Below are positions 23,981 through 39,310 of a stretch of 64,000 nt of DNA, in pieces. Position 1 is the stretch's first letter. Each line of letters opens with the position of its first letter. The stretch spans positions 248,001-312,000 of the forward strand of contig NZ_VOGY01000003.1 in the NCBI RefSeq assembly GCF_008033385.1. Reading direction: 5' to 3'. Below the pieces are notes generated by a model. That model was given only the letters and a program-made list of their open reading frames with translations, did not search any database and was not told the origin of the DNA. The stretch comes from Algibacter pacificus (GTDB taxonomy: Bacteria > Bacteroidota > Bacteroidia > Flavobacteriales > Flavobacteriaceae). The translations under genes and the position numbers were made by a program.

Positions 23981-25114
23981 ATGAAAAAGAATAATTTATA
24001 CTCCATATTAACGCTAAGCGTTATGTTACTTGTTTTTAGCTGTGGTAATAAAGCAGAGCAAGCAGCTGCCACACAACAAGCACCACCTCCGGCATTTCCG
24101 GTGTCGCAATTGGAACAAAAAACAGTCATAGGTTATGCAGAATATCCAACAAATTTAGAAGGTATTATAAACTCGGATGTGAGAGCGAAAGTTTCTGGAT
24201 ATATCCAAAGTGTATTAGTAGACGAAGGCCAAAAAGTGCGTAAAGGACAGGCTTTATTTAAATTAGAAACACAGTCTTTAAGTCAAGATGCTGGTGCTGC
24301 AAAAGCTCGTATTAATGTAGCTCAAGTAGAGGTTAATAAATTAATTCCGCTTGTAGAAAAAAACATTATTAGCCCAGTACAATTAGAAACAGCCAAAGCT
24401 AATTTGGCACAAGCAAAAGCTAATTATAGTAGTGTTTCTGCTAATATTGGTTACGCAACTATTAAAAGTCCGGTCGATGGTTTTGTAGGTGCTATTAACT
24501 TTAGAGAAGGTGCGTTAGTAAGCCCAACTACTGCTTTGGCATTAACTACAGTAAGTGACATAAGTAAAGTATATGCTTTTTTTAGTTTAAATGAAACTGC
24601 ATATTTAGATTTTTTACAAAATACAGAAGGCAAAAATCTGCAAGAAAAACTAGCTAATTTTGCTGAAGTAAGCTTGATTCTGGCAAACGGAACTATGTAT
24701 GCTGAAAAAGGAAAAATTGAAACCAGCTCAGGTCAAATTAATCAAAATACAGGTACGGTAAGTTTTAGAGCTGTTTTTAATAATCCGAATCAATTATTGA
24801 CTAATGGGAATAGTGGTAAAATTCAAATTCCAAAAGTTTATGAAAATGCTATTGTAATTCCTCAAGATGCTACTTATGAGCAACAAGGGAATATTATGGT
24901 CTTTAAGCTAGATGAAAATAATACCATTAAAACGGCTATTGTTAAAGTAAAAGCAACGGTAGATAATTTATATGTTATAGAATCTGGAGTAGATAAAACA
25001 GATACTATTGTAGTTTCCGGTGTAGGTAAATTAAGAAATGGTATGGTTATTTCGCCACAAAAAACACCGTTTGAAGAAGCTATAAAACCAGTGCCAACAC
25101 TTTTCAAAAATTAA
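23981..25114 (+). CDS. RND efflux periplasmic adaptor (membrane fusion) lipoprotein
   Basis: A 377-residue HlyD/AcrA-type adaptor linking pump and outer-membrane channel. It has a lipoprotein signal with lipobox VFSC, a biotinyl-lipoyl half (VRAKVSGYIQSVLVDEGQKVRKGQALFKLE), an alpha-helical hairpin (~100-150), the second lipoyl half (ATIKSPVDGFVGAINFREGALVS), and beta-barrel and membrane-proximal domains (to ~360). It is the second gene of the operon, 21 nt before the pump gene. Secure as a family call; the substrate is not predictable. Confidence 0.94.
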   Translation: MKKNNLYSILTLSVMLLVFSCGNKAEQAAATQQAPPPAFPVSQLEQKTVIGYAEYPTNLEGIINSDVRAKVSGYIQSVLVDEGQKVRKGQALFKLETQSLSQDAGAAKARINVAQVEVNKLIPLVEKNIISPVQLETAKANLAQAKANYSSVSANIGYATIKSPVDGFVGAINFREGALVSPTTALALTTVSDISKVYAFFSLNETAYLDFLQNTEGKNLQEKLANFAEVSLILANGTMYAEKGKIETSSGQINQNTGTVSFRAVFNNPNQLLTNGNSGKIQIPKVYENAIVIPQDATYEQQGNIMVFKLDENNTIKTAIVKVKATVDNLYVIESGVDKTDTIVVSGVGKLRNGMVISPQKTPFEEAIKPVPTLFKN

Positions 25115-25135
25115 AAACCTAGAAATTTTATAATC

Positions 25136-28100
25136 ATGTTAAAAACATTTATTGAAAGACCCGTGCTTTCAACCGTAATATCTATTATCATAGTTATGCT
25201 AGGTATTATTAGTATAACAACCCTACCCATAGAGGAATATCCAGATATAGCACCTCCAACAATTCAGGTGTCTGCAAACTATACAGGAGCCAACGCCGAA
25301 ACGGTTTTAGAAAGTGTAATTATTCCTATAGAAGAACAAATAAATGGTGTAGAAGGTATGACATACATGACTTCTACAGCATCAAACAATGGTACAGCTT
25401 CTATAACCGTGTATTTTGATCAAGAAACAGATGCAGATATTGCAGCTGTAAATGTGCAAAACCGTGTTTCTAGAGCAACTCCATTATTACCGCAAGAGGT
25501 AACACAAACAGGTGTAGTAACACAAAAACAGGAAACTAGTGCGTTGATGTTTATTTCAATGTATTCTGAAAGTGAAAACTACGATGCCACGTTTATTCAG
25601 AATTATTTAAAAATTAACGTTATTCCTGCCATGCAGCGTATTAGTGGTGTTGGAGATGTTAGTGTGTTTTCGCAACAAGATTATGCCATGCGAGTTTGGT
25701 TAAACCCAGAAAAGTTAGCAGCCTATAATTTAATACCTTCAGATATTACTGCGGCTTTAGCTGAGCAGAATTTAGAAGCAGCAGCAGGTTCGTTAGGTGA
25801 AAATAATGGTGAATCCTTTTCATATACCTTAACCTATAGTGGTCGTTTTAAAGATGAAAGTCAATATAGCGACATCGTTATTAAAGCTTTAGGAAACGGA
25901 GAATTTTTACGTTTAAAAGATGTAGCTACTATTGAGTTAGATGCTCAATCTTACTCATCTAATGCTATGAGTAAAGGGAATCCCGCAGTTTTTATGGGGA
26001 TTTTTCAAACCAAAGGGTCTAACGCACAAGAAATTATTGAAAACATTAAGTCTACTTTAGAAGATGTCAAAGCAGATCTTCCAGAAGGTTTAGACATTTT
26101 TGTTCCTTATGATACAAGTTTATTTTTAAACGCTTCTATCGAAAAGGTAATTAGTACTTTATTAGAAGCTTTTTTATTAGTGTTTTTGGTAGTATTTATC
26201 TTTTTACAAGATTTTCGTTCTACACTAATTCCTGCAATTGCAGTACCAGTATCTATTATTGGTACTTTCTTTTTCTTGAGTGTTTTTGGATATTCTATTA
26301 ACCTATTAACGCTATTTGCATTAGTGTTAGCCATTGGTATTGTGGTAGATGACGCCATTGTAGTTGTAGAAGCGGTTCATGCTAAAATGGACGAAGGGGA
26401 ACACAACCCTAAAAAAGCAACGTTAACAGCAATGAATGAGATTTCTGGTGCTATTATCTCGATTACTTTAGTTATGGCGGCGGTATTTATTCCTGTAACA
26501 TTTGTAACGGGGCCAACAGGGGTTTTTTATGAGCAGTTTGGTGTTACATTAATTATAGCCATTTTAATTTCGGCAGTAAATGCCTTAACACTGAGTCCGG
26601 CTTTATGTGCTTTATTATTAAAAGAACATAAAGGCGATGAGGAGTTAAAAGGAAAAGGACCGCTTAAGCGATTCTATACTGTATTCAATCGTGGTTTTAA
26701 TGCCACTATCGAAAAATATGGAAGATCGCTACAGTTTTTATACAAAAGAAAATTTGTTTCGGTATTATTATTAATTATTGCAGGAGTTGGTATTTATTGG
26801 GCTTCAACCACAACACCAACAGGCTTTGTACCTAATGAAGATAGAGGGATTGTTTTTGCTAACATCGAATTACCGCCAGGAGCATCATTAGATAGAACAG
26901 ATGCTGTTTCAAGAAAATTATATGCTCAAATTGAAGGCATAGAAGGCATTGAAGCTGTAAACTTTATTAAAGGTAGAAGTTTAATAAGTGGAGCTGGTAG
27001 CAATTATAGTTTTGGTATTATAAAACTTAAAAACTGGGATGAACGTGAAGACGAGTCCTTATCTGCACAAGCCATTACAGGAAAATTATTTGGTATAGCA
27101 GCAGGAATACCTGATGCTAATATTATATTCTTTTCACCTCCTAGTATTCGTGGTTTTGGTAACTCATCAGGTTTCGAAATTAATTTATTAGATAAGTTTG
27201 GTGGCGAGTTTACAGATTTAGATAAAGCCAATAAAGATTTTTCTATGGCTTTAATGAGTCATCCAGAAATTAAATACGCACAATCTTCTTTTAGTACAAA
27301 TTATCCGCAATACGAAATGGAAGTTAATGTACCGTTAGCAAAAGAAAAAGGTGTATCGGTAAGTAGTATATTTTCAACATTACAAGGTTATATTGGTGGG
27401 ATTTATGCTTCAGATTTTTCGAAATTTGGAAAGCAATTTAGAGTTTACATCCAGGCTTTGCCAGAAGATAGAGCTAATGAGAGCGCATTGAACAGTATGT
27501 ATGTAAGAACAGATAGCGGAGCCATGACACCAATTACACAGTTTGTTAAGTTAAAGCGCGTGTATGGACCACAATCGGTAACACGTTTTAATCTTTTTAA
27601 TTCTACAACCATAACAGGTGCTACAAACGCTGGTTACAGTACTGGTGATGCTATTAAAGTTATAGAAGAAGAAGTCGCAAAATTACCTAGCAATTATACG
27701 GTAGCTTATTCTGGTTTAACACGTGAAGAGGTAAATGCAGGTAACCAAACTACCTTTATTTTTATATTAAGTATTCTGTTTGTTTACTTTTTATTAAGTG
27801 CACAATACGAAAGTTACTTATTGCCATTTGCTGTGATATTCTCATTACCATTTGGTGTATTTGGAGCTTACATAAGCACTAAATTTTTTGGTTTAGAAAA
27901 CAATATATACTTCCAAATTGCCTTAATCATGCTTATTGGTCTACTCGCTAAAAATGCCATTCTTATTGTTGAGTTTGCTTTACAACGACGAAAAAATGGT
28001 GAACCTATAGTTGATGCAGCCATCCATGGAGCCAAAGCACGTTTGCGTCCAATTTTAATGACCTCGTTTGCTTTTATTTTAGGATTAATGCCTTTAGTTT

Positions 28101-28273
28101 TAGCAAAAGGTGTAGGATCGGAAGGTAACAACTCCATTGGTACCGGCGCAGCAGGAGGTATGTTAATTGGAACACTTTTAGGAGTCTTCGTCATTCCTAT
28201 TTTATTTATATTATTTCAATGGTTACAAGAAAAAATTTCTAGTAAACCAGCAATACAAACTATTGAAGAATAA
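25136..28273 (+). CDS. RND multidrug efflux pump permease (HAE1 family)
   Basis: A 1045-residue AcrB-type proton-driven inner-membrane pump. It has twelve helices in two repeats, each with a large periplasmic loop (porter and docking domains). The proton relay pair D405-D406 lies in GIVVDDAIVVVEA of helix 4, and the second-half signature is GLLAKNAILIVEFA. The N-terminus (FIERPVLSTVISIIIVMLGII) and the ITTLPIEEYPDIAPP motif are typical of hydrophobe/amphiphile exporters rather than metal exporters. It forms a tripartite system with the adaptor upstream and the channel 5 nt downstream. Confidence 0.96.
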   Translation: MLKTFIERPVLSTVISIIIVMLGIISITTLPIEEYPDIAPPTIQVSANYTGANAETVLESVIIPIEEQINGVEGMTYMTSTASNNGTASITVYFDQETDADIAAVNVQNRVSRATPLLPQEVTQTGVVTQKQETSALMFISMYSESENYDATFIQNYLKINVIPAMQRISGVGDVSVFSQQDYAMRVWLNPEKLAAYNLIPSDITAALAEQNLEAAAGSLGENNGESFSYTLTYSGRFKDESQYSDIVIKALGNGEFLRLKDVATIELDAQSYSSNAMSKGNPAVFMGIFQTKGSNAQEIIENIKSTLEDVKADLPEGLDIFVPYDTSLFLNASIEKVISTLLEAFLLVFLVVFIFLQDFRSTLIPAIAVPVSIIGTFFFLSVFGYSINLLTLFALVLAIGIVVDDAIVVVEAVHAKMDEGEHNPKKATLTAMNEISGAIISITLVMAAVFIPVTFVTGPTGVFYEQFGVTLIIAILISAVNALTLSPALCALLLKEHKGDEELKGKGPLKRFYTVFNRGFNATIEKYGRSLQFLYKRKFVSVLLLIIAGVGIYWASTTTPTGFVPNEDRGIVFANIELPPGASLDRTDAVSRKLYAQIEGIEGIEAVNFIKGRSLISGAGSNYSFGIIKLKNWDEREDESLSAQAITGKLFGIAAGIPDANIIFFSPPSIRGFGNSSGFEINLLDKFGGEFTDLDKANKDFSMALMSHPEIKYAQSSFSTNYPQYEMEVNVPLAKEKGVSVSSIFSTLQGYIGGIYASDFSKFGKQFRVYIQALPEDRANESALNSMYVRTDSGAMTPITQFVKLKRVYGPQSVTRFNLFNSTTITGATNAGYSTGDAIKVIEEEVAKLPSNYTVAYSGLTREEVNAGNQTTFIFILSILFVYFLLSAQYESYLLPFAVIFSLPFGVFGAYISTKFFGLENNIYFQIALIMLIGLLAKNAILIVEFALQRRKNGEPIVDAAIHGAKARLRPILMTSFAFILGLMPLVLAKGVGSEGNNSIGTGAAGGMLIGTLLGVFVIPILFILFQWLQEKISSKPAIQTIEE

Positions 28274-29700: not shown

Positions 29701-30294
29701 ATGATAACCAAAAAAGACTTGCTACGTTGTGCTATTACCAAGTTTACAAAACAGGGAAGTAAACATGTTTCACTAGATGAAATAGCACAAACTTTAGGCA
29801 TTTCTAAAAAAACAATTTATACATTCTATAAAACTAAAGCAGATTTAGTGTCCTCTAGTTTAGAGAATTTATTGAATGATTATAAAGAAGAAATTAATAG
29901 GATTGTTGCTTGCAACAGCAACGATCCTGTTTTTTGTGTTGTTTTAATTTACGAAAGAGGGTTTGAGTATTTAAAATACTTCAAGCCCTCTTTTATTTTT
30001 GGACTAGAAAAATACTACCCAAAAGCTTATAAATTATTTCTGGATTTTACAGAAGAATTGGCTTTTTCAACTGTGTTTAATTTGCTGAAAAGTGCGCAAG
30101 AACAAGGCGATATTAAGCCAGATGTAAATTTAAGATTAGCTGTAAAAATTTACTTTTTAAGAATTGATAACCTGGCTTTCAAGAAACATAATTTATTCGA
30201 TTTATATGGGAAAGAGACTTTATTTAAGCACCTAGTAGTTTATAATTTAAAAGGTTTAATAACAAAGCAATATTCTAATTCTTATTTTGAATAG
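29701..30294 (+). CDS. TetR/AcrR-family regulator at the end of the efflux operon
   Basis: A 197-residue repressor with an N-terminal TetR HTH (KHVSLDEIAQTLGISKKTIYTFYKTKADLVSSSL) and a C-terminal ligand-binding helical domain. An ATG four bases earlier opens a frame that stops at once (ATG AAA TGA), so this ATG is the start. It lies 6 nt after the channel gene, giving the operon a second regulator besides the GbsR-type protein. Its last ~40 codons are duplicated in decayed form at 35310-35430, so this gene marks the left border of an inserted or duplicated block. Confidence 0.9.
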   Translation: MITKKDLLRCAITKFTKQGSKHVSLDEIAQTLGISKKTIYTFYKTKADLVSSSLENLLNDYKEEINRIVACNSNDPVFCVVLIYERGFEYLKYFKPSFIFGLEKYYPKAYKLFLDFTEELAFSTVFNLLKSAQEQGDIKPDVNLRLAVKIYFLRIDNLAFKKHNLFDLYGKETLFKHLVVYNLKGLITKQYSNSYFE

Positions 30295-30311
30295 ATTCGT
30301 GTTTTTGCCAG

Positions 30312-30470
30312 ATGAAAAAAAGATATTAAAATTTCGCAAATTCAAGGTGTTCACGTTGCTGCAGTAAACGAATACAACGTTATTTTTAAAACCCAAAATG
30401 GGTGTATAAATAATTATCAATAAAGCGGTATATTAAGAAATGGCCTAGTAGTCTAAAGTTATACTTAGAG
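30312..30470 (+). pseudogene. Decayed 5' copy of the conserved hypothetical gene at 35448
   Basis: After an extra A in the run following the start codon, the frame reads KDIKISQIQGVHVAAVNEYN and onward. It aligns with the N-terminus of the intact protein coded at 35448 (KEDITIPEVEDVYVAIVNEYN), about half of the residues identical over ~38 positions, then reaches a stop at 30421. Nucleotide similarity continues weakly to ~30470. The 17 nt between the tetR stop and this start also match the corresponding 17 nt before 35448. It is a truncated, frameshifted duplicate. Confidence 0.8.
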
Positions 30471-30524
30471 TAAAATACGCCTTAAATTTTATAAAAAACA
30501 GATGGTATTTAATAATAAGAAACA

Positions 30525-30791
30525 TTAATTTATATATAGCTTTACTATTTCTTCTTTATCTAAAGACAGAGAATTTGGTTGTTTCTGTATGGTTATGCTT
30601 CTCTTTTTTTTAAAACCGTGTTAAAATTTTGTACTGTATTATTAATTTTTTCTAATTCCTTTTTATTGTCCAAAGGAATTAAGGGGGTAGTATCGTTTTT
30701 TAGAGTTTCAATTTTAGTATCTAACGTTTTATTTTTACAAGAAAAAGAACAAAACTACAACTATAGTTGAAACTAGGTTTTTTATTTTCAT
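30525..30791 (-). pseudogene. Frameshifted small lipoprotein gene
   Basis: Reading leftward from the ATG at 30791: MKIKNLVSTIVVVLFFF, then after removal of one base in the T5 run (30742-30746) the frame continues SCKNKTLDTKIETLKND, restoring a lipobox FFSC. The second part ends in ...NFNTVLKK; a second shift in the A8 run (30604-30611) leads into SITIQKQPNSLSLDKEEIVKLYIN and a stop. It is the last member of a leftward set of secreted proteins. It is either a pseudogene or two homopolymer errors in the assembly. No family is recognised. Confidence 0.65.
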
Positions 30792-30811
30792 GAGTATGGC
30801 TTTTAACCAAT

Positions 30812-31504
30812 TTATTGTTTAAAAACTTTAAAATCTTCTACACTATTATTAGAGTACACTTTAACAAAGTAAATTCCGGAAGGTTGGTTTTTAAAATCTA
30901 TTTTAGTATTATTTGCATTTTCTTTAGTGTTTATTAATTGTTCTCCTAAAACATTAAAGATTTTTACACTAGTTATTTTTGTGTTTGCATTAATTATCAA
31001 CTCATTTTTAATTGGATTTGGATAATAATTTAGCGCATTTATTACAGCATTGTTTGTAGATAGTGTGTGTGCTGTTATTGTAAGTGCAAATTCTAAATCG
31101 CAATCCCCTCTACAGGCTAAGGTGTATTTTTCTATGAAAATAAAGTAAAAATCTCCTGATTGTAAATTGTTAACTGTTGTTTCGCCTTGGTTACCACATG
31201 CAACTTCTGTGTAGTTAGTGCAATCTTTAACTATAGAGTAGCGCATTATACCTCCGCCAGATAAATTAATTTTAACTTCTCCAGATGCCGGAGCAGAAAA
31301 AGAATACCAAAGATCTCTTGTATTAAGACTACATGAAGTGTTTTCTCCAGAGTTTGTTGCAAAATCTAAACTACCAAATATTTGGTTTCCTAATACAATA
31401 TTTCTGGCTCCGGAACAGTTGTTATTACTTGGAGTGTCTTGCGCGTTTAAATTTAAACTTAAACATAAGACGAGAAAAATATGGCCTAAATTATATGTTT
31501 TCAT
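30812..31504 (-). CDS. Secreted protein with type IX sorting domain (type A)
   Basis: A 230-residue exported protein. It has a signal peptide (1-21, ending LNLNAQ), a beta-sandwich of ~120 residues with six Cys (LWYSFSAPASGEVKINLSGG, FYFIFIEKYTLACRGDCDLEFALTI) similar to PPC-like pre-peptidase domains, and a C-terminal Por secretion/T9SS type A sorting domain (~157-230: NYYPNPIKNELIINA, VKIFNVLGEQL, PSGIYFVKVYS). The T9SS domain directs it to the cell surface or outside and is then removed. It carries no catalytic domain; it may bind a surface ligand. It belongs to the accessory block. Confidence 0.87.
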   Translation of the reverse strand: MKTYNLGHIFLVLCLSLNLNAQDTPSNNNCSGARNIVLGNQIFGSLDFATNSGENTSCSLNTRDLWYSFSAPASGEVKINLSGGGIMRYSIVKDCTNYTEVACGNQGETTVNNLQSGDFYFIFIEKYTLACRGDCDLEFALTITAHTLSTNNAVINALNYYPNPIKNELIINANTKITSVKIFNVLGEQLINTKENANNTKIDFKNQPSGIYFVKVYSNNSVEDFKVFKQ

Positions 31505-31529
31505 AAATGTATTCTAAAATAATTAATTT

Positions 31530-32099
31530 TTATTGTTCCTTAATATTGTCGTAAACAAGTTCAGCTAGCTTTTTAAGTTCTTTATCGTCATAAAAACAAG
31601 GGGTTTTTTTAATCCAAGGTTTGTAATAGGTAATACCTATGTTTATCATTACATTTTTATAATAAAACCTTAAATATTTTACATTGTTTTTTTTATTATT
31701 GGAAGACGCGGATACTAAGTAAGCTTCTGCGTCTCGTATTTTAAATTCTGTTTTATTTTCTTTGGTCTTTTCTCTAATTGCTTTAAAAGTTCTAGAAGCG
31801 TCTTTTGCAGTTGCATAAGACGAAAATGAAACTTTTACCGCATTTAGAGACGGAACACTATCTTTGGTTAAAAGGTAAGTACAGTGAATCTCGTTGGCTC
31901 TATTATCTTTTGTAGTGGTGTAAGGTAACTTACCATCGCTAATACATAATGTTGAGTAGTCTCCTTTAGTAAAAAAATTGGCGCAATTATAATTCGTTAT
32001 TCGTGTTGCGCTTTTGTTTTGCTTTATAGTTTTATTAGGGGCTTTTTTACAACTAAACAATAGCGTTAAGCAAATTAAAGCAAGGGTTATGTTTTTCAT
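31530..32099 (-). CDS. Hypothetical lipoprotein
   Basis: A 189-residue protein with a lipoprotein signal (MKNITLALICLTLLFSC, lipobox LFSC, Cys17), a Lys-rich linker and a compact domain with four further Cys (NYNCANFF, STLCISDGKLPY, EIHCTYLL, KTPCFYDD). The middle (KVSFSSYATAKDASRTFKAIREK) resembles DUF-type lipoproteins that monitor the envelope, but no family is recognised. It is 25 nt upstream of the T9SS protein gene in the same direction, so probably the same transcript. The function is unknown. Confidence 0.75.
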   Translation of the reverse strand: MKNITLALICLTLLFSCKKAPNKTIKQNKSATRITNYNCANFFTKGDYSTLCISDGKLPYTTTKDNRANEIHCTYLLTKDSVPSLNAVKVSFSSYATAKDASRTFKAIREKTKENKTEFKIRDAEAYLVSASSNNKKNNVKYLRFYYKNVMINIGITYYKPWIKKTPCFYDDKELKKLAELVYDNIKEQ

Positions 32100-32111
32100 T
32101 TCTAGTTATTT

Positions 32112-32565
32112 TTAGAGAACTAATTCGGCTTTATTAATTTTTAGACTAGGGTTTTCTGAAGCAACTAGAATACTTGAAATTCTATAATTAGCATCTTCCT
32201 CAATAGTTAATATGTGGTTTTTACCAGAAAAACGCCATTTGGTTTTACCAATAACATTAGACTTTAACTCGTTTAATATTAGTTTTTTATTAGTTGGGTC
32301 TATATTTAAAGTAACAATTTTGGCATCTCCCTTAAATATTTTTACGTTAAATAGAATTTTTAAATCGCCTTCATACTCAAAAATCCATATCAGACCAAAA
32401 CACTATTTCTTCTCCTTTTTTAAAATATAGTATGGCTTCTTTAGTTGTAACATGCCCCTTAGTACTTACTTTGTTAATGGCTAATCTTGCTATTTCTTTT
32501 CCAGTTAAACCGGAACAGCTAATTAGTCATATTAGCATGATTACTAGTGTTGTGCGTTTTTTTAT
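32112..32565 (-). pseudogene. Broken lipoprotein gene (lost start, stop codon, frameshift)
   Basis: Reading leftward from 32565 the frame gives IKKRTTLVIMLI, stop (TGA at 32527-32529), then LISCSGLTGKEIARLAINK up to FWSDMDF. Removal of one T from a T5 run (32379-32383) joins it to EYEGDLKILFNVKIFKGD and on to a normal stop at 32112. The start codon is ATA instead of ATG. So three lesions disrupt what was a ~150-residue lipoprotein (lipobox LISC). The lost start and the in-frame stop are substitutions, which argues for real decay. It begins 4 nt after the stop of the upstream DUF4412 gene. Confidence 0.8.
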
Positions 32566-32569
32566 AAAA

Positions 32570-33385
32570 TTAATACCTCAAATTGTTATAATTACTTGAG
32601 TTTATTTCAAGGTTGGATTGTGTAATGGATAAACACTGCATGGTTATAGTTTGTGGTTTACGTTTAGATGTGTCTATCATGTCCATCTCCATAACCCAGC
32701 CTTCAATATCCTTCATCCATGCTTGGTTAATGTTTTCTCCTTTTTTATGAGATTGAAATGTGCTCGGAAAATGAAAATCTACATCTTTAGTTACCCAAAT
32801 AGTAGCTGTTACTTTTTCTCCTTTTATTTTGTATTCCTTAGAATGATAACCTATAATTGTTTTACTGTTTCCGGTGGCTTTAATCTCGTAAAAAGCAGTT
32901 TCATCAGATGTGGTATTGGTTTTAAACTCAACTCCCATTTTAAATTTTTGACCGTTGTTTTCCATAAAAGTAAATATAGTTTCAAGTTGTGAATCGTACA
33001 CAATTGTAAGTTCGTCCTTCATTTTTTCATCTTTTATTTTAACCCCAAAAAAAGTGTTGGTTTCAGGTAAATAATATTCAAAATCTTGAATCTGTTTTCC
33101 GGATTGCATTTTCATAACAGCTTTATGTTTAAAGCTGTAATTTTCTGGAGAATTTACTTTGGATATCGTTGATATATTTGTGCTACCTTTTTTATTTTTT
33201 ATTTTTTTGTTAAACGTAGAGTCAAAGGCTTTTTCGGTTGCTTTTCTTGTTTTTTGCTCTACCCTTTGTTCCACAGATTTTTCTGCTGCTTTTTCAATTT
33301 TATCTCCTAATTTTTTGAAAAATTGTGCATTAGCTAATCCTGAAAAACAGAAAAAGGTTAGGATAATAAAAGTTGTTTTTTTCAT
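32570..33385 (-). CDS. Secreted DUF4412-domain protein
   Basis: A 271-residue exported protein with signal MKKTTFIILTFFCFSGLANAQ. An amphipathic Lys/Glu helix (FFKKLGDKIEKAAEKSVEQRVEQKTRKATEKAF) follows, then a DUF4412 beta-rich domain (~75-260) with KTIIGYHSKEYKIKGEK, ATIWVTKDVDFHFP and GWVMEMDMID. DUF4412 proteins are periplasmic or surface proteins of unknown role with a LolA-like beta-sheet fold. It is the first intact gene of the leftward set in the accessory block, followed at once by the broken lipoprotein gene. Confidence 0.8.
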   Translation of the reverse strand: MKKTTFIILTFFCFSGLANAQFFKKLGDKIEKAAEKSVEQRVEQKTRKATEKAFDSTFNKKIKNKKGSTNISTISKVNSPENYSFKHKAVMKMQSGKQIQDFEYYLPETNTFFGVKIKDEKMKDELTIVYDSQLETIFTFMENNGQKFKMGVEFKTNTTSDETAFYEIKATGNSKTIIGYHSKEYKIKGEKVTATIWVTKDVDFHFPSTFQSHKKGENINQAWMKDIEGWVMEMDMIDTSKRKPQTITMQCLSITQSNLEINSSNYNNLRY

Positions 33386-33556
33386 TTCTGATAATTTTTA
33401 AAAGTATAATTTTAATAGTTTGCCATGCAATAGAAGCATGAAATAATTACTATGTCAAACTTACTTAAAGGATATCCCAAAAAGGGTGTGTGTGGATAAT
33501 GATTACCAGATTTGTTGCGTCATTTCGCGAATTGACCTTGTGTAAGTGTAATAAAG

Positions 33557-34984
33557 TTAGTCTTTTAGATTAGAAATTAGTTTAAAAGGAGTTTGGTTGT
33601 ATTTTGCTAAAAAGGCTCGTTCAAAACTTTTTTTAGATCCAAAACCGCTCTCTTTGGCGATCTCTTCAACCTTGTAATTTCTAAATTTATTGTCTTTTAA
33701 TATACGGTTGTATGCGTATTCTATTCTTAAATTATTTATGAAGACTGAAAAAGAATTTTGGTAATTTTCATTTATAAATTGGCTTAAGTAACGTTCGGAT
33801 TTTATGCTACTTTCTTCACAAAAAGATTTTCTTGTAATGTTAGGTTTTAGAAATAATTGTTCCTTTTTTAACTTGCTAATTGCTGCTTTTATTTTTGCTA
33901 TTTCGCTATCACTAATACTTATTTTTTTACTTGGAGTTCTTTTAAAAGACTCAAATAGTTCATTGTTTTCTTTTTTAAGTTTCTTGTAATGGTAAACTCC
34001 AATTATAAACAATAACAAGATTATTAAACCGAAAAGAAGAGTCCTTACTATATTTTTGGTTTTAACACTTTTTAATTCTCTGTTTTTCTCAATATTGTAT
34101 AAATCTCTATATTTTTCTACCGAAAAACTTAATGAATCATTTACAGCTTCGTTATAAATTTTATGATAGGCATTTGCTTTTTCTTGATAGCCTAATTTTT
34201 CGTATACCTCTATTAATTTACTTGCTGCTACTTTAATTTGTTCAGGGTCTTTTGTTTCTAATGTAAGTTTTAAAAACTCATCATAATAAGTAGTTGCACT
34301 TATTAAAGAGTCTTGTTTTACTAAGCAATCTCCTAACATTGAATACGCATAGCTTTTGGTGTTTAAAAAACTTGTAGTATCTCTTATAGCTTTTAAATTA
34401 AGTTCCTTACAGCGCTCATAGTTTTTGGTATAAAAACTGTATTGCATTGCAACGTGGTTCTTTGTTTTGTTGTCTAATGTAGAGGTTTTTGTTAGTTTGT
34501 AAGCTTTTGTTAAAGAGTTTCCAGCATTAAGAGAATCGTTTTTACTTAAGTGAAGATTAGATAATAATAAAAAAGTTTGAACGGATAGAGGGGGGGCTTG
34601 GTTGTTTTTTATAACTAAATCAAAGTACTCTATAGATTTATCGTAATCCGAAATAACCGAATATATTACACCAATCATAAAATTAAATTTCACCTTTTCT
34701 TGTTCGTTATCTATAGTATCTAAAGAATAAAAGGCTTCAGTTAAAGCTTCGTTGTAAGCAGATTGCATAAAAAGCACTTTTACTAACTGGTAGTTTAGAG
34801 CATTTTTAACTTCACTTTTATGTTGTTTAGCCGTTTGGTTTTTAATGTATATTTTAGCCGAGTCTAACTTGGCTTGCGAAATGTAGTTGTCTATTTCTTG
34901 TTGAATAGCTTGTGTTTCTTGGCAAGAAGCACTAACTGGAGTTAGAATAAAAACTAATAGAAGAAAAAAAAAATATTTTGTCAT
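33557..34984 (-). CDS. Membrane-bound TPR sensor with C-terminal AraC-type DNA-binding domain
   Basis: A 475-residue one-protein signalling device. It has a signal/anchor segment (1-20), a periplasmic TPR region (~22-300: AYNEALTEAFYSLDTI, ISDYDKSIEYFDLVIKNN, KNDSLNAGNSLTKAYKL), one membrane helix (~313-331, IVRTLLFGLIILLLFIIGVY), a coiled linker and a cytoplasmic AraC HTH (~375-475: FCEESSIKSERYLSQFINENY, YKVEEIAKESGFGSKKSFERAF, TPFKL). This layout is known from Bacteroidota TPR-AraC regulators that sense extracytoplasmic signals. Located at the head of the accessory block, it likely controls the secreted-protein genes to its left. Confidence 0.9.
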   Translation of the reverse strand: MTKYFFFLLLVFILTPVSASCQETQAIQQEIDNYISQAKLDSAKIYIKNQTAKQHKSEVKNALNYQLVKVLFMQSAYNEALTEAFYSLDTIDNEQEKVKFNFMIGVIYSVISDYDKSIEYFDLVIKNNQAPPLSVQTFLLLSNLHLSKNDSLNAGNSLTKAYKLTKTSTLDNKTKNHVAMQYSFYTKNYERCKELNLKAIRDTTSFLNTKSYAYSMLGDCLVKQDSLISATTYYDEFLKLTLETKDPEQIKVAASKLIEVYEKLGYQEKANAYHKIYNEAVNDSLSFSVEKYRDLYNIEKNRELKSVKTKNIVRTLLFGLIILLLFIIGVYHYKKLKKENNELFESFKRTPSKKISISDSEIAKIKAAISKLKKEQLFLKPNITRKSFCEESSIKSERYLSQFINENYQNSFSVFINNLRIEYAYNRILKDNKFRNYKVEEIAKESGFGSKKSFERAFLAKYNQTPFKLISNLKD

Positions 34985-35309
34985 TAGAAAAGTTGGAAGC
35001 TTTATCTTTTTAAGTAAAGCTTGTTTTTTTAGATATATTAATCTAGCGTATCTGTTAATGTTTTAGAAATTTTACCTTCATGAAAAATAGCATATTTTAA
35101 TTCTTTTCAATTTTAAAATCAAGCACAAGTATAATTATTATGTGTGCCAAAAATACATAAAATATAAGCTATTATTTAACGCTCTATAAAAATAGTTTTT
35201 CATTGTTATCATGTATTTAGAGTTCCAATTATTGGGTGTTCCTAAAATTTTTGATTTAAAAAAACGGTAAAATTATTTGTTCCTTTGTATAATAGTAATT
35301 TGTAGTCGG
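34985..35309. other. Gene-free stretch upstream of the TPR-AraC gene
   Basis: No gene is visible. It contains an 8-bp inverted repeat (34997-35004 with 35015-35022, AAGCTTTA/TAAAGCTT) just upstream of the TPR-AraC start, which could be a leader hairpin or operator. Very AT-rich sequence follows and merges with the tetR remnant near 35250-35310. Confidence 0.4.
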
Positions 35310-35430
35310 CTGGCCTTAAAAAAATAACCTCATCACTTTATATGAGTAAGATATTTTATTTAAACACATGGAAATTTATAATTTAATGGTTATTATTTCC
35401 AGCACATATTCTAACCCTTATTTTGAATAG
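35310..35430 (+). pseudogene. Decayed 3' fragment of the tetR gene
   Basis: The in-frame reading LFKHMEIYNL...YSNPYFE-stop at 35353-35430 aligns with the true TetR C-terminus LFKHLVVYNL...YSNSYFE. Further upstream the nucleotide match continues to CTGGCCTT at 35310 (CTGGCTTT at 30172), with one 2-nt gap and an in-frame stop at about 35350. It sits directly before the intact hypothetical gene, exactly as the real tetR end sits before the decayed copy at 30312. Confidence 0.8.
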
Positions 35431-35447
35431 ATTTGTATTTTTGCCAA

Positions 35448-35843
35448 ATGAAAGAAGATATCACCATCCCAGAAGTTGAAGACGTTTACGTTGCTATAGT
35501 TAACGAATACAATGCTATTTATAAAACGCAAGACTGGAATGCATACATTATAAATGATAAAGACGTTGATTTAGAAATGATACTTATTGTGACCAGTGGC
35601 TATTCTAAAGATAAAATAACATCTACTTTTAGAAAGAAACTCGACAAGCTTCCTAAAAAGAGTTATGCCAAAATAGAATTAATGCATGACGACTTATTTA
35701 AGATAAATAACACGTTTAAAGTCTCTTTCTTCGAAGGCAATAAAATGTTCGATAAAACTTACTTATTCCGTGAAAACACCATTAATTTAAAAGCTTTACA
35801 ACCCTTGCCGCTTATGCAAGTAAAAGGTGTTTTGGTAAAGTAA
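35448..35843 (+). CDS. Conserved flavobacterial hypothetical protein
   Basis: A 131-residue cytoplasmic protein. The start is the ATG at 35448; a longer frame using TTG at 35433 is unlikely because it would read through the -7 box TATTTTTG at 35436-35443. With that box only 4 nt before ATG the message may be leaderless. Features are DWNAYIINDKDVDLEMILIVTSGYSK, a Lys-rich middle (TFRKKLDKLPKKSYAKIELM) and a C-terminal KTYLFRENTINLKAL...LPLMQVKGVLVK. Relatives are sometimes labelled as a phenylalanyl-tRNA synthetase subunit, but no synthetase motif is present. The function is unknown. An EamA gene follows 75 nt later. Confidence 0.85.
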   Translation: MKEDITIPEVEDVYVAIVNEYNAIYKTQDWNAYIINDKDVDLEMILIVTSGYSKDKITSTFRKKLDKLPKKSYAKIELMHDDLFKINNTFKVSFFEGNKMFDKTYLFRENTINLKALQPLPLMQVKGVLVK

Positions 35844-35918: not shown

Positions 35919-36761
35919 ATGAAAAGCTCAACGCCTATTTTTTATATGATTTTTAGTGTTATTGCCTTTTCATTAATGAATACGGTAGTAAAATATTTAG
36001 ATGATTTTGGTGCCTATCAAATTGTGTTTTTTAGATCTATAGGAACCTTGTTTTTTACGGTGCCATTAATTGTAAAAGCTAAGATTCCTGTTTTAGGAAA
36101 TAACAAAAAGCTATTGGTTTTACGCGGCATTTTTGGGGTTATTTCTTTAACTTGTTTTTTTCAATCTTTAAATTACATGTCCTTAGGTACAGCGGTTTCA
36201 TTACGATATACATCGCCTATTTTTGCTGCATTGTTTGCTTTATATTATTTAAGAGAACGGATTAAACCAATACAATGGCTGTTGTTTTTAATAGCTTTTC
36301 TTGGTGTTTTAGTGATTAAAGGTTTTGGAGCAGATGTAAATTCTTTGGGCGTTATTTTTGCTATTTTATCGGCCATTTTTTTAGGGCTAATATTTGTGGT
36401 AATTCGAAAATTAGGAGATTCCGAAAACCCTTTAGTCATTATTAATTATTTTATGGTTTTTGCATTTGTTATTGGTGGAATTATGTCTATAAAATATTGG
36501 AAAACCCCTAATTTAACCGAGTGGTTACTTTTATTAAGCTTGGGTGTTTTTGGATATGTTGGTCAGATTTTTATGACGAAATCCTTGCAATCTGGAGAAA
36601 CCAACGTTGTTGTGCCTTTAAAATATTTAGAGGTTATTTTTATGATTGTTATTGGCGCTTTTTGGTTTGATGAAATTTATACCTTATGGACTTTATTTGG
36701 GGTGTTTCTAATCATGTTCGGACTGCTTTATAATATTTATTTAAAACAAAAACGGGATTAA
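35919..36761 (+). CDS. EamA-family (DMT superfamily) transporter
   Basis: A 280-residue inner-membrane protein with ten predicted helices in two EamA repeats (~4-138 and ~146-275). Typical elements are SVIAFSLMNTVVKYL, VFFRSIGTLFFTVP, the MSLGTAVSLRYTSPIFAALFALYYLRERI segment at the end of the first repeat and MTKSLQSGETNVVVPLKYLEVIFMIVIGAFWFDE at the end of the second. DMT transporters move small metabolites, often as exporters; the substrate cannot be told. It is the last gene before the repeat array. Confidence 0.9.
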   Translation: MKSSTPIFYMIFSVIAFSLMNTVVKYLDDFGAYQIVFFRSIGTLFFTVPLIVKAKIPVLGNNKKLLVLRGIFGVISLTCFFQSLNYMSLGTAVSLRYTSPIFAALFALYYLRERIKPIQWLLFLIAFLGVLVIKGFGADVNSLGVIFAILSAIFLGLIFVVIRKLGDSENPLVIINYFMVFAFVIGGIMSIKYWKTPNLTEWLLLLSLGVFGYVGQIFMTKSLQSGETNVVVPLKYLEVIFMIVIGAFWFDEIYTLWTLFGVFLIMFGLLYNIYLKQKRD

Positions 36762-36825
36762 GTTTTGTTAATCTTTTTTGGTATCGTTGTTTAGCTAAAG
36801 GCTCAGAGAGCATACTCATCAAATT

Positions 36826-38285
36826 TTTGTCACTTCAATTTTTAGAGAAGTCACCATAACAGTGAACATACAAACCAGAGTTTCTTTATGCGATTTCTCC
36901 TAGCGTCGAAATGACAAGCTCTACGAAAAAAACACTAACCTTTGTCACTTCGAAGTATTGAGAAATCTCATAACAGTGAGCACGCCAACTAGAGTTTCTT
37001 TATGCGATTTCTCCTAGAGTCGAAATGACAAGCTCTACGAAAAAACACTAACCTTTTGTCACTTCGAAGTATTGAGAAGTCTCATAACCGTGAGCACGCC
37101 AACTAGAGTTTCTTTATGAGATTTCTCCTAGCGTCGAAATGACAAGCTCTACGAAAAAACACTAGCCTTTTGTCACTTCGAAGTATTGAGAAGTCTCATA
37201 ACCGTGAGCACGCCAACTAGAGTTTCTTTATGCGATTTCTCCTAGCGTCGAAATGACAAGCTCTACGAAAAAAACACAAACCTTTTATCTCTTCGAAGTA
37301 TTGAGAAGTCTCATAACAGTGAGCGCGCCAACTAGAGTTTCTTTGTGCGATTTCTCCTAGCGTCGAAATGACAAGCTCTACGAAAAAAACACAAACCTTT
37401 TATCTCTTCGAAGTATTGAGAAGTCTCATAACAGTGAGCACGCCAACTAGAGTTTCTTTATGCGATTTCTCCTAGCGTCGAAATGACAAGCTCTACGAAA
37501 AAAACACTAACCTTTGTCACTTCGAAGTATTGAGAAGTCTCATAGCCGTGAGCACTCAGCCAGAGTTTCTTTATGAGATTTCTCCTAGCGTCGAAATGAC
37601 AAGCTCTACGAAAAAACACTAGCCTTTGTCACTTCGAAGTATTGAGAAGTCTCATAGCCGTGAGCACTCAGCTAGAGTTTCTTTATGCGATTTCTCCTAG
37701 CGTCGAAATGACAAGCTCTACGAAAAAAACACTAACCTTTGTCACTTCGAAGTATTGAGAAATCTCATAACAGTGAGCACGCCAACTAGAGTTTCTTTAT
37801 GCGATTTCTCCTAGAGTCGAAATGACAAGCTCTACGAAAAAAACACTAACCTTTGTCACTTCGAAGTATTGAGAAGTCTCATAGCCGTGAGCACTCAGCT
37901 AGAGTTTCTTTATGAGATTTCTCCTAGCGTCGAAATGACAAGCTCTACGAAAAAAACACAAACCTTTTATCTCTTCGAAGTATTGAGAAGTCTCATAACC
38001 GTGAGCACGCCAACTAGAGTTTCTTTATGCGATTTCTCCTAGCGTCGAAATGACAAGCTCTACGAAAAAAACACTAACCTTTGTCACTTCGAAGTATTGA
38101 GAAGTCTCATAGCCGTGAGCACTCAGCTAGAGTTTCTTTATGAGATTTCTCCTAGCGTCGAAATGACAAGCTCTACGAAAAAACACTAGCCTTTTGTCAC
38201 TTCGAAGTATTGAGAAGTCTCATAACCGTGAGCACACAACTAGAGTTTCTTTTATGTGATTTCTTCCAAAAATTCGAAAAGACAA
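36826..38285. repeat. Tandem array 1 of ~114-bp hairpin repeats (13 units)
   Basis: Units recur at 112-115-bp steps; the marker CGAAGTATTG begins at 36951, 37065, 37179, 37294, 37409, 37523, 37635, 37748, 37862, 37976, 38090 and 38203, with a diverged first unit from 36826. Each unit has a left arm (TTGTCACTTCGA ... GAGAAGTCTCATAA), a ~27-nt loop, a right arm (TTATGMGATTTCTCC ... TCGAAATGACAA) that is an imperfect inverted copy, and a linker CTCTACGAAAAAACACTAACC. Two loop types occur (CACGCCAACTAG and CACTCAGCTAG) and two arm types (GTCACTTCG and TATCTCTTCG). Inner units are nearly identical; the edge units are diverged. It lies between convergent EamA and tex, together with the GIY-YIG gene. 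Confidence 0.95.
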
Positions 38286-38299
38286 AACTGTGTGGGAAT

Positions 38300-38617
38300 C
38301 TATTCAAATTCACTATTTAAAAAATTAAAAGAAGGGTTCTTTTCTTTTATAAGTGCTAATTTCTTCTCACGTCTCCATTTTTTTAATTCCTTTTCTCTGG
38401 TAATGGCTAATTGAATCCAAGTATGTTTTTCGTAATACACTAAAAATTCAATATTATATTTTGCTGCAAATGTTTTCTTCTTTTCAATGATATTTGTTTT
38501 ATGTTGTTGTAAGCGTTCTTTTAAATTATTTGTTACTCCAATATAAAATGTAGAACGGTATTTATTTGTAATTATGTAAACATAATAAGTGTGAAATCCT
38601 TTTTGTGGGTTTAGCAT
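38300..38617 (-). CDS. Small GIY-YIG nuclease (COG2827 type) inside the repeat array
   Basis: A 105-residue single-domain GIY-YIG protein. It has the GIY strand as V13-Y-I15 (YYVYIITN), the YIG strand at 25-27 (FYIGVTNN), the catalytic Arg R35 in LKERLQQHK, the metal-binding Glu in REKELKKW (E75) and the terminal KNPSFNFL motif. The catalytic set seems intact. Free-standing proteins of this kind have no settled role; the fold cuts DNA in UvrC, homing endonucleases and some restriction enzymes. It is flanked on both sides, within 20-40 nt, by the ~114-bp repeats, so it probably belongs with them. Its codon and base use resembles its neighbours. Confidence 0.9.
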   Translation of the reverse strand: MLNPQKGFHTYYVYIITNKYRSTFYIGVTNNLKERLQQHKTNIIEKKKTFAAKYNIEFLVYYEKHTWIQLAITREKELKKWRREKKLALIKEKNPSFNFLNSEFE

Positions 38618-38652
38618 TTTGTTTAAAAAGGTAAGAAAAAATATTTATATAA

Positions 38653-39310
38653 ATTGGTACTTCAAACTTAGTGAGAATACAAATTATGAGCTCGTTTATG
38701 CGATTTCTCCTAGCGTCGAAATGACAAGTTCTACCAAAAAACACTAACCTTTGTCACTTCGAAGTATTGAGAAGTCTCATAACAGTGAGCACGCCAACTA
38801 GAGTTTCTTTGTGCGATTTCTCCTAGCGTCGAAATGACAAGCTCTACGAAAAAAACACTAACCTTTGTCACTTCGAAGTATTGAGAAGTCTCATAACCGT
38901 GAGCACTCAGCTAGAGTTTCTTTATGAGATTTCTCCTAGCGTCGAAATGACAAGCTCTACGAAAAAAACACTAACCTTTTGTCACTTCGAAGTATTGAGA
39001 AGTCTCATAACAGTGAGCACGCCAACTAGAGTTTCTTTGTGTGATTTCTCCTAGCGTCGAAATGACAAGCTCTACGAAAAAAACACAAACCTTTTATCTC
39101 TTCGAAGTATTGAGAAGTCTCATAACCGTGAGCACGCCAACTAGAGTTTCTTTATGCGATTTCTCCTAGCGTCGAAATGACAAGCTCTACGAAAAAAACA
39201 CTAACCTTTTGTCACTTCGAAGTATTGAGAAGTCCCATAAAGTAGCTCAGTAGCTCAAACGACCAAAAATATTAAGTGATTTCTCTCTTCAATCGTAATG
39301 ACAAACAAGG
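38653..39310. repeat. Tandem array 2 of the same ~114-bp hairpin repeats (about 6 units)
   Basis: The same repeat resumes 35 nt upstream of the GIY-YIG start codon with a shortened unit (38653-38750). Markers follow at 38760, 38874, 38988, 39103 and 39218 (steps 114-115), and it ends in a diverged unit near 39310. Orientation is the same as array 1. Both loop variants and both arm variants are present. The outermost unit reads AAGTCCCATAAAGTAGC instead of the normal arm, so the end is decayed. Confidence 0.95.

Follow-up and report, generated by a model that had tools for sequence, protein, structure and literature searches.

Two diverged copies of a tetR-HYPO junction bracket a 5.1-kb lineage-specific insertion in Algibacter pacificus

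Campbell-type integration leaves an insert between direct copies of the homologous region, with resident sequence on one side and donor sequence on the other, and the resident sequence need not be lost. Homology-facilitated illegitimate recombination (HFIR), which has been reported for Streptococcus pneumoniae, Acinetobacter baylyi and Pseudomonas stutzeri, joins a linear donor fragment through one homologous anchor and one non-homologous join (PMC3240628). A footprint of this sort has also been argued for the T6SS effector-immunity displacement arrays of Vibrio cholerae, where a conserved stretch serves the incoming module as its anchor; the resident downstream version is shifted aside, so that a second copy of related sequence is left (PMC5361080). 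The locus described here resembles the three systems and departs from each of them. Unlike a typical Campbell-type product, the block carries no plasmid or phage gene and no sign of a circular donor, and the donor homology is truncated, at nt 165 of HYPO and nt 472 of tetR. HFIR would be known here only from its genome footprint. In contrast to the V. cholerae arrays, the accessory cassette is unrelated to the anchor, and one of the two copies survives only as a dead fragment, not as a retained gene. We regard the process as one of known kind and this locus as a well-preserved example.

The window is a stretch of 64,000 nt from Algibacter pacificus (contig NZ_VOGY01000003.1, positions 248,001 to 312,000), in which the junction between tetR and the conserved gene HYPO is present twice, at 30172-30474 and 35310-35612, with 75% identity. 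The duplicated unit comprises the last 123 nt of tetR, a 17-nt spacer and the first ~165 nt of HYPO, and it includes two ungapped direct repeats, each 75% identical, of 137 nt (30184-30320 and 35320-35456) and 81 nt (30316-30396 and 35451-35531). The gapped local alignment of the two copies scores 182, a value compared with 300 dinucleotide-preserving shuffle pairs of which none exceeds 38, and searching the whole genome with the junction returned a single extra place (E = 2e-36). The repeats, the shuffle scores and the genome-wide search confirm the duplication of the tetR 3' end, spacer and HYPO 5' part claimed in the first-pass annotation, and the alignment that it had named as a check lies far above chance.

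The limits of the copies were set by searches with profiles built from relatives. On the left, an intact tetR of 197 aa (29701-30294, plus strand; Pfam TetR_N) contributes its 3' end to the left junction copy, which with the spacer covers 30172-30311 on the plus strand. Behind it lies a HYPO remnant limited to nt 1 to ~165 (30312-30474, plus strand; nhmmer E 8e-19, HYPO model positions 2-165), with an extra base after the ATG, a 2-nt deletion, and one TAG and two TAA codons in frame. On the right, only tetR nt 472-594, the spacer and the ATG were found (35310-35450). This right junction copy (35310-35447 up to the ATG, plus strand) is without the first 471 nt of tetR and leads into an intact HYPO of 131 aa (35448-35843, plus strand), 95% identical in amino acids to A. 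lectus-type congeners. Beyond these limits the profile searches found no further HYPO remnant on the left and no further tetR remnant on the right. Of the reciprocal decay proposed earlier, the intact left tetR and right HYPO stand, whereas the supposedly decayed partners are a 123-nt 3' fragment and a 5' fragment.

The 5.1-kb block between the copies is a lineage-specific insertion. Four Algibacter genomes were compared, G001, G002, G003 and G004, with G001, G002 and G004 forming the A. lectus group. All four show the order mfp-RND-OMF-tetR-HYPO with nothing of the block between tetR and HYPO, and in all four the HYPO ATG lies ~17 nt past the tetR stop, i.e. the relatives have an empty site with one intact junction. 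Of 21 other loci with a TetR relative upstream of HYPO, 18 have the two genes adjacent (gap <100 nt) and 3 are interrupted, by 9 kb in Olleya (L119 and L121) and by 0.45 kb in Gelidibacter (L151). Since tetR is directly followed by HYPO in the congeners and in 18 of these 21 loci, the block represents a derived state of the window's lineage, gained by insertion. The absence of the block from related genomes was as predicted; the further expectation of a tetR-HYPO-EamA order held for tetR-HYPO in all four congeners, but EamA occupies this place only in G001. Another family genome (G017, L040) has its tetR and HYPO separated by 1.1 kb, and no duplicated junction was found at L119, L121, L151 or L040. 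The Olleya insert at L121:1075-9998 contains genes resembling a TonB receptor, ankyrin repeats and a PepSY/flavodoxin reductase. Scars of the tetR tail, 84 and 33 nt long, stand directly before HYPO with tetR gone in Confluentibacter and Mariniflexile (L109, L083 and L088).

The earlier description of the block as a TPR-AraC regulator, secreted proteins and lipoprotein remnants is correct, and a DUF4412 protein is also present. All of these are encoded on the minus strand: a small lipoprotein-like pseudogene remnant (30540-30795; start MKIKNLVSTIVVVLFFFL, with a stop after it), a secreted protein with a galactose-binding-like domain and a type IX secretion sorting tail (30812-31504; PF23759, PF18962), a lipoprotein-like protein of 189 aa (31530-32099), a decayed small lipoprotein gene (32107-32560), the DUF4412 secreted protein of 271 aa (32570-33385; PF14371) and the TPR-AraC regulator of 475 aa (33557-34984; PF12833). 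Positions 32107-34909 match a cassette in another genus (genome G358, contig L172) with 69.8% nucleotide identity over 2.8 kb. Amino acid identity to G358 is 58-59% for the DUF4412 protein and 69-70% for the regulator, and the decayed lipoprotein gene has its intact counterpart at L172 10123-10644. That contig has neither tetR nor HYPO, and the genes beside its cassette we take from their sequence to be rho and a prolyl-tRNA synthetase. The TPR-AraC gene occurs in 2 of 399 family genomes, the window's genome and G358, and is absent from the other four genus genomes, which gave one short 29% match only. Relatives of the DUF4412 protein are found in 122 of the 399, and the 189-aa lipoprotein has no homologue at E 1e-8 in any of them other than this genome. 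The cassette core (TPR-AraC, DUF4412 and the small lipoprotein) occurs elsewhere in one other genus among the 399 genomes. No integrase, transposase, plasmid or phage gene was found among the ORFs of 30300-35600. We rejected an integrative mobile element, as integrase and transposase are absent from 30300-35600 and the duplicated stretch consists of 300 nt from genes rather than of a short target duplication. A plasmid origin of the AraC gene was also rejected, its matches in plasmids being weak and partial.

The left tetR is probably a chimera of a resident 5' part (nt 1 to ~350, A. lectus group-like) and a divergent donor 3' part. Its nt 1-349 are 87-89% identical to G001, G002 and G004 (89% to G001) and 71-75% to other genera, and its duplicated tail is 77-82% identical to the same three genomes (82% to G001) and 69-79% to other genera. 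Divergence on the left rises from 2.0 per 100 nt at 29900-30049 to 10.7 and then to 16.3 at the duplicated part. A mismatch-rate scan places a break at 30050, with p 0.03 within tetR and 0.0025 across OMF-tetR; third positions of tetR place it near 30000 (p 0.018), and with the third positions of OMF-tetR alone the break is not significant (p 0.19). The same scan found no comparable break within the tetR of G003. This breakpoint test is moderate, and its outcome could reflect faster change of the tetR C-terminus once the left HYPO fragment was dead. Single-gene affinities vary across the genus, with heavy recombination, and because its genes differ in history every single-locus inference is soft.

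We consider the best explanation, with a probability of about 0.5, to be that one continuous foreign segment was anchored through its tetR-HYPO end while the resident HYPO was kept. The ancestral order would have been mfp-RND-OMF-tetR-HYPO, and the segment, from ~30050/30172 to 35310, would have entered the resident tetR. Its left end would have carried a related tetR 3' end and a HYPO 5' part as the homologous anchor, so that the resident tetR would run into the donor 3' end and remain whole, though chimeric. The donor HYPO fragment would follow, then the AraC-DUF4412-lipoprotein cassette, and the right end of the segment would join the resident tetR at nt 472, leaving in place the tail of the resident tetR, the spacer that carries the HYPO promoter, and HYPO. 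The donor HYPO fragment, being dispensable, would have decayed, and of the resident tetR tail only the last ~37 nt would have escaped decay. The donor would belong to a lineage within or close to Algibacter that is not among the sampled species. These comparisons support the left part as the import, but do not prove it; the affinity of the right HYPO to A. lectus counts against it and would be expected if the right copy had been the imported one.

The joining event may have been a single crossover, either with a circular molecule (Campbell) or with a linear one of which one end was joined illegitimately (HFIR). The insert is flanked by direct repeats of the region of homology, and a putative ancestry switch lies near 30050 (p 0.0025-0.03), with the right HYPO hinting at the opposite. 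Replication, transfer or phage genes of a circular donor are absent from the block ORFs. As for HFIR, the left end has the tetR-HYPO homology, and at the other end the profile search found no homology upstream of 35310, where any microhomology would have decayed. With regard to natural transformability of the host, the genome has a ComEC-family gene, but most control genomes give the same match. A circular one-crossover donor and a linear HFIR donor give an identical product. The single-crossover claim of the first-pass annotation is partly supported: relatives have the junction without the block, and the left tetR switches affinity before the duplicated part, as such a crossover would predict; the molecule may have been circular or linear.

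On the sequence comparisons the two copies differ in ancestry and did not arise by recent duplication, which supports the earlier suggestion of another species as donor. In the tree of the whole junction the right copy joins G001, G002 and G004 (support 97/99), with the left copy placed outside G003; forcing the two together costs 13.9 log units and is rejected (p-AU 0.025). The tree of the tetR tail only (140 columns) again joins the right copy with G001, G002 and G004 (99/98), with the left outside G003 and inside Algibacter (95/93), while a joint clade is kept by the AU test (p 0.10), unsurprising at 140 columns. Only 4 junction sites are common to the left and right copies alone, versus 29 private to the left and 15 to the right, and the right copy is nearer to three other species than to the left copy. 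A tandem duplication of the junction within the lineage, after which the middle gained an insertion or was lost and the copies decayed reciprocally, would fit the two direct-orientation copies and their decay. We regard it as improbable, because the copies do not group, are not mutual closest relatives and share so few private changes, and because the block, no copy of neighbouring sequence, is absent from all congeners; the old duplication with loss of its middle that had been offered earlier is disfavored accordingly. Quite improbable, too, is an older gain in the Algibacter ancestor with later precise excision between the junction copies in all other species. Recombining direct repeats could restore tetR-HYPO exactly and the left copy does branch below the sampled species, but a separate loss without trace of the cassette genes would be needed in each of the four. 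That the second junction reflects an assembly artefact or chance similarity is next to negligible: the copies differ by 25% and lie in the middle of a 449-kb contig, the alignment far exceeds the shuffles, and we found no point in its favor.

The serious rival, if an unlikely one, is that the right side was imported. An A. lectus-like donor, its efflux operon lost except for the tail as a scar, would have supplied the cassette, tetR tail and HYPO; these would have recombined downstream of HYPO and joined illegitimately inside the resident HYPO near nt 165, after which the resident HYPO decayed. In its tree the right HYPO groups with G002 and G004 (98/93), and a grouping of G001, G002 and G004 without it is rejected (p 0.033). 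Its informative sites are A. lectus-type in 15 of 22 cases versus 66 of 318 in four other genes (p 6e-6), but such pooled counts overstate significance where gene histories differ. The scars that the tetR tail has left before HYPO at L109, L083 and L088, in other genera, also fit this route. However, it leaves the left tetR divergence just before the duplicated part unexplained, and it requires an additional exchange, placed between HYPO and EamA, because the A. lectus-type genomes compared lack EamA there. Divergence of the right HYPO falls in the lower part of the resident range, and the gene is contiguous with the resident EamA. In the right tail, identity to congeners is 97% over the last 37 nt and drops to 68% further upstream.

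The survival of this end of the tail may have its reason in a predicted HYPO promoter element in the spacer. TAnnTTTG, the Bacteroidota -7 promoter box with a published spacing of T-12 to G-5 (PMC6847099), stands intact 4 nt before the HYPO ATG (35436-35450) and is conserved across genera at most TetR-adjacent loci, being present within 40 nt upstream of HYPO in 17 of 20 such loci versus 0.6 expected. In the left-copy spacer the position reads TGTTTTTG. From the published spacing the HYPO transcript is predicted to be leaderless, starting at the ATG itself. HYPO has no match in Pfam or NCBIfam, and it is conserved across Flavobacteriaceae, behind the efflux operon or away from it.

Import of a segment anchored at its left end would make the locus a readable footprint of accessory genes entering a flavobacterial chromosome without a mobile element, with a conserved junction as anchor, a probably chimeric in-frame regulator, a neighbour that kept its promoter and, as its sole trace, a dead second junction. 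The insertion bounds a cassette whose core occurs in only one other genus. We speculate, and hold it doubtful, that the tetR-HYPO junction behind the efflux operon is a recurrent exchange point across Flavobacteriaceae, loading cassettes and swapping pump alleles; the promoter in the 17-nt spacer and the conserved gene ends on both sides would let foreign DNA anchor there without breaking either gene.

The operon itself has a mixed history. Sequence foreign to the genus occupies positions 24350-28150, which take in the latter half of mfp and all of the RND pump gene. The pump is 92-93% identical in amino acids to those of Lacinutrix, Arcticiflavibacter and A. amylolyticus versus 88-89% to congeners, and Algibacter as a single clade is rejected (AU p 2e-70 for RND, 2e-8 for mfp). 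Import of the whole operon was rejected: OMF (100) and TetR (99) both group within Algibacter, and only mfp and RND lie outside. In Lacinutrix (L145, L146) the RND pump is nested in the Algibacter clade while OMF and TetR are not, so pump alleles of the operon move between genera. On the right flank, the EamA transporter (35919-36761, plus strand) and a GIY-YIG gene (38300-38617) stand between HYPO and Tex (35919-38617) only here and in G001, and HYPO is directly followed by Tex in G002, G003 and G004. Between EamA and Tex, a tandem array with a 114-bp unit in ~17 copies surrounds the GIY-YIG gene (36825-39240).
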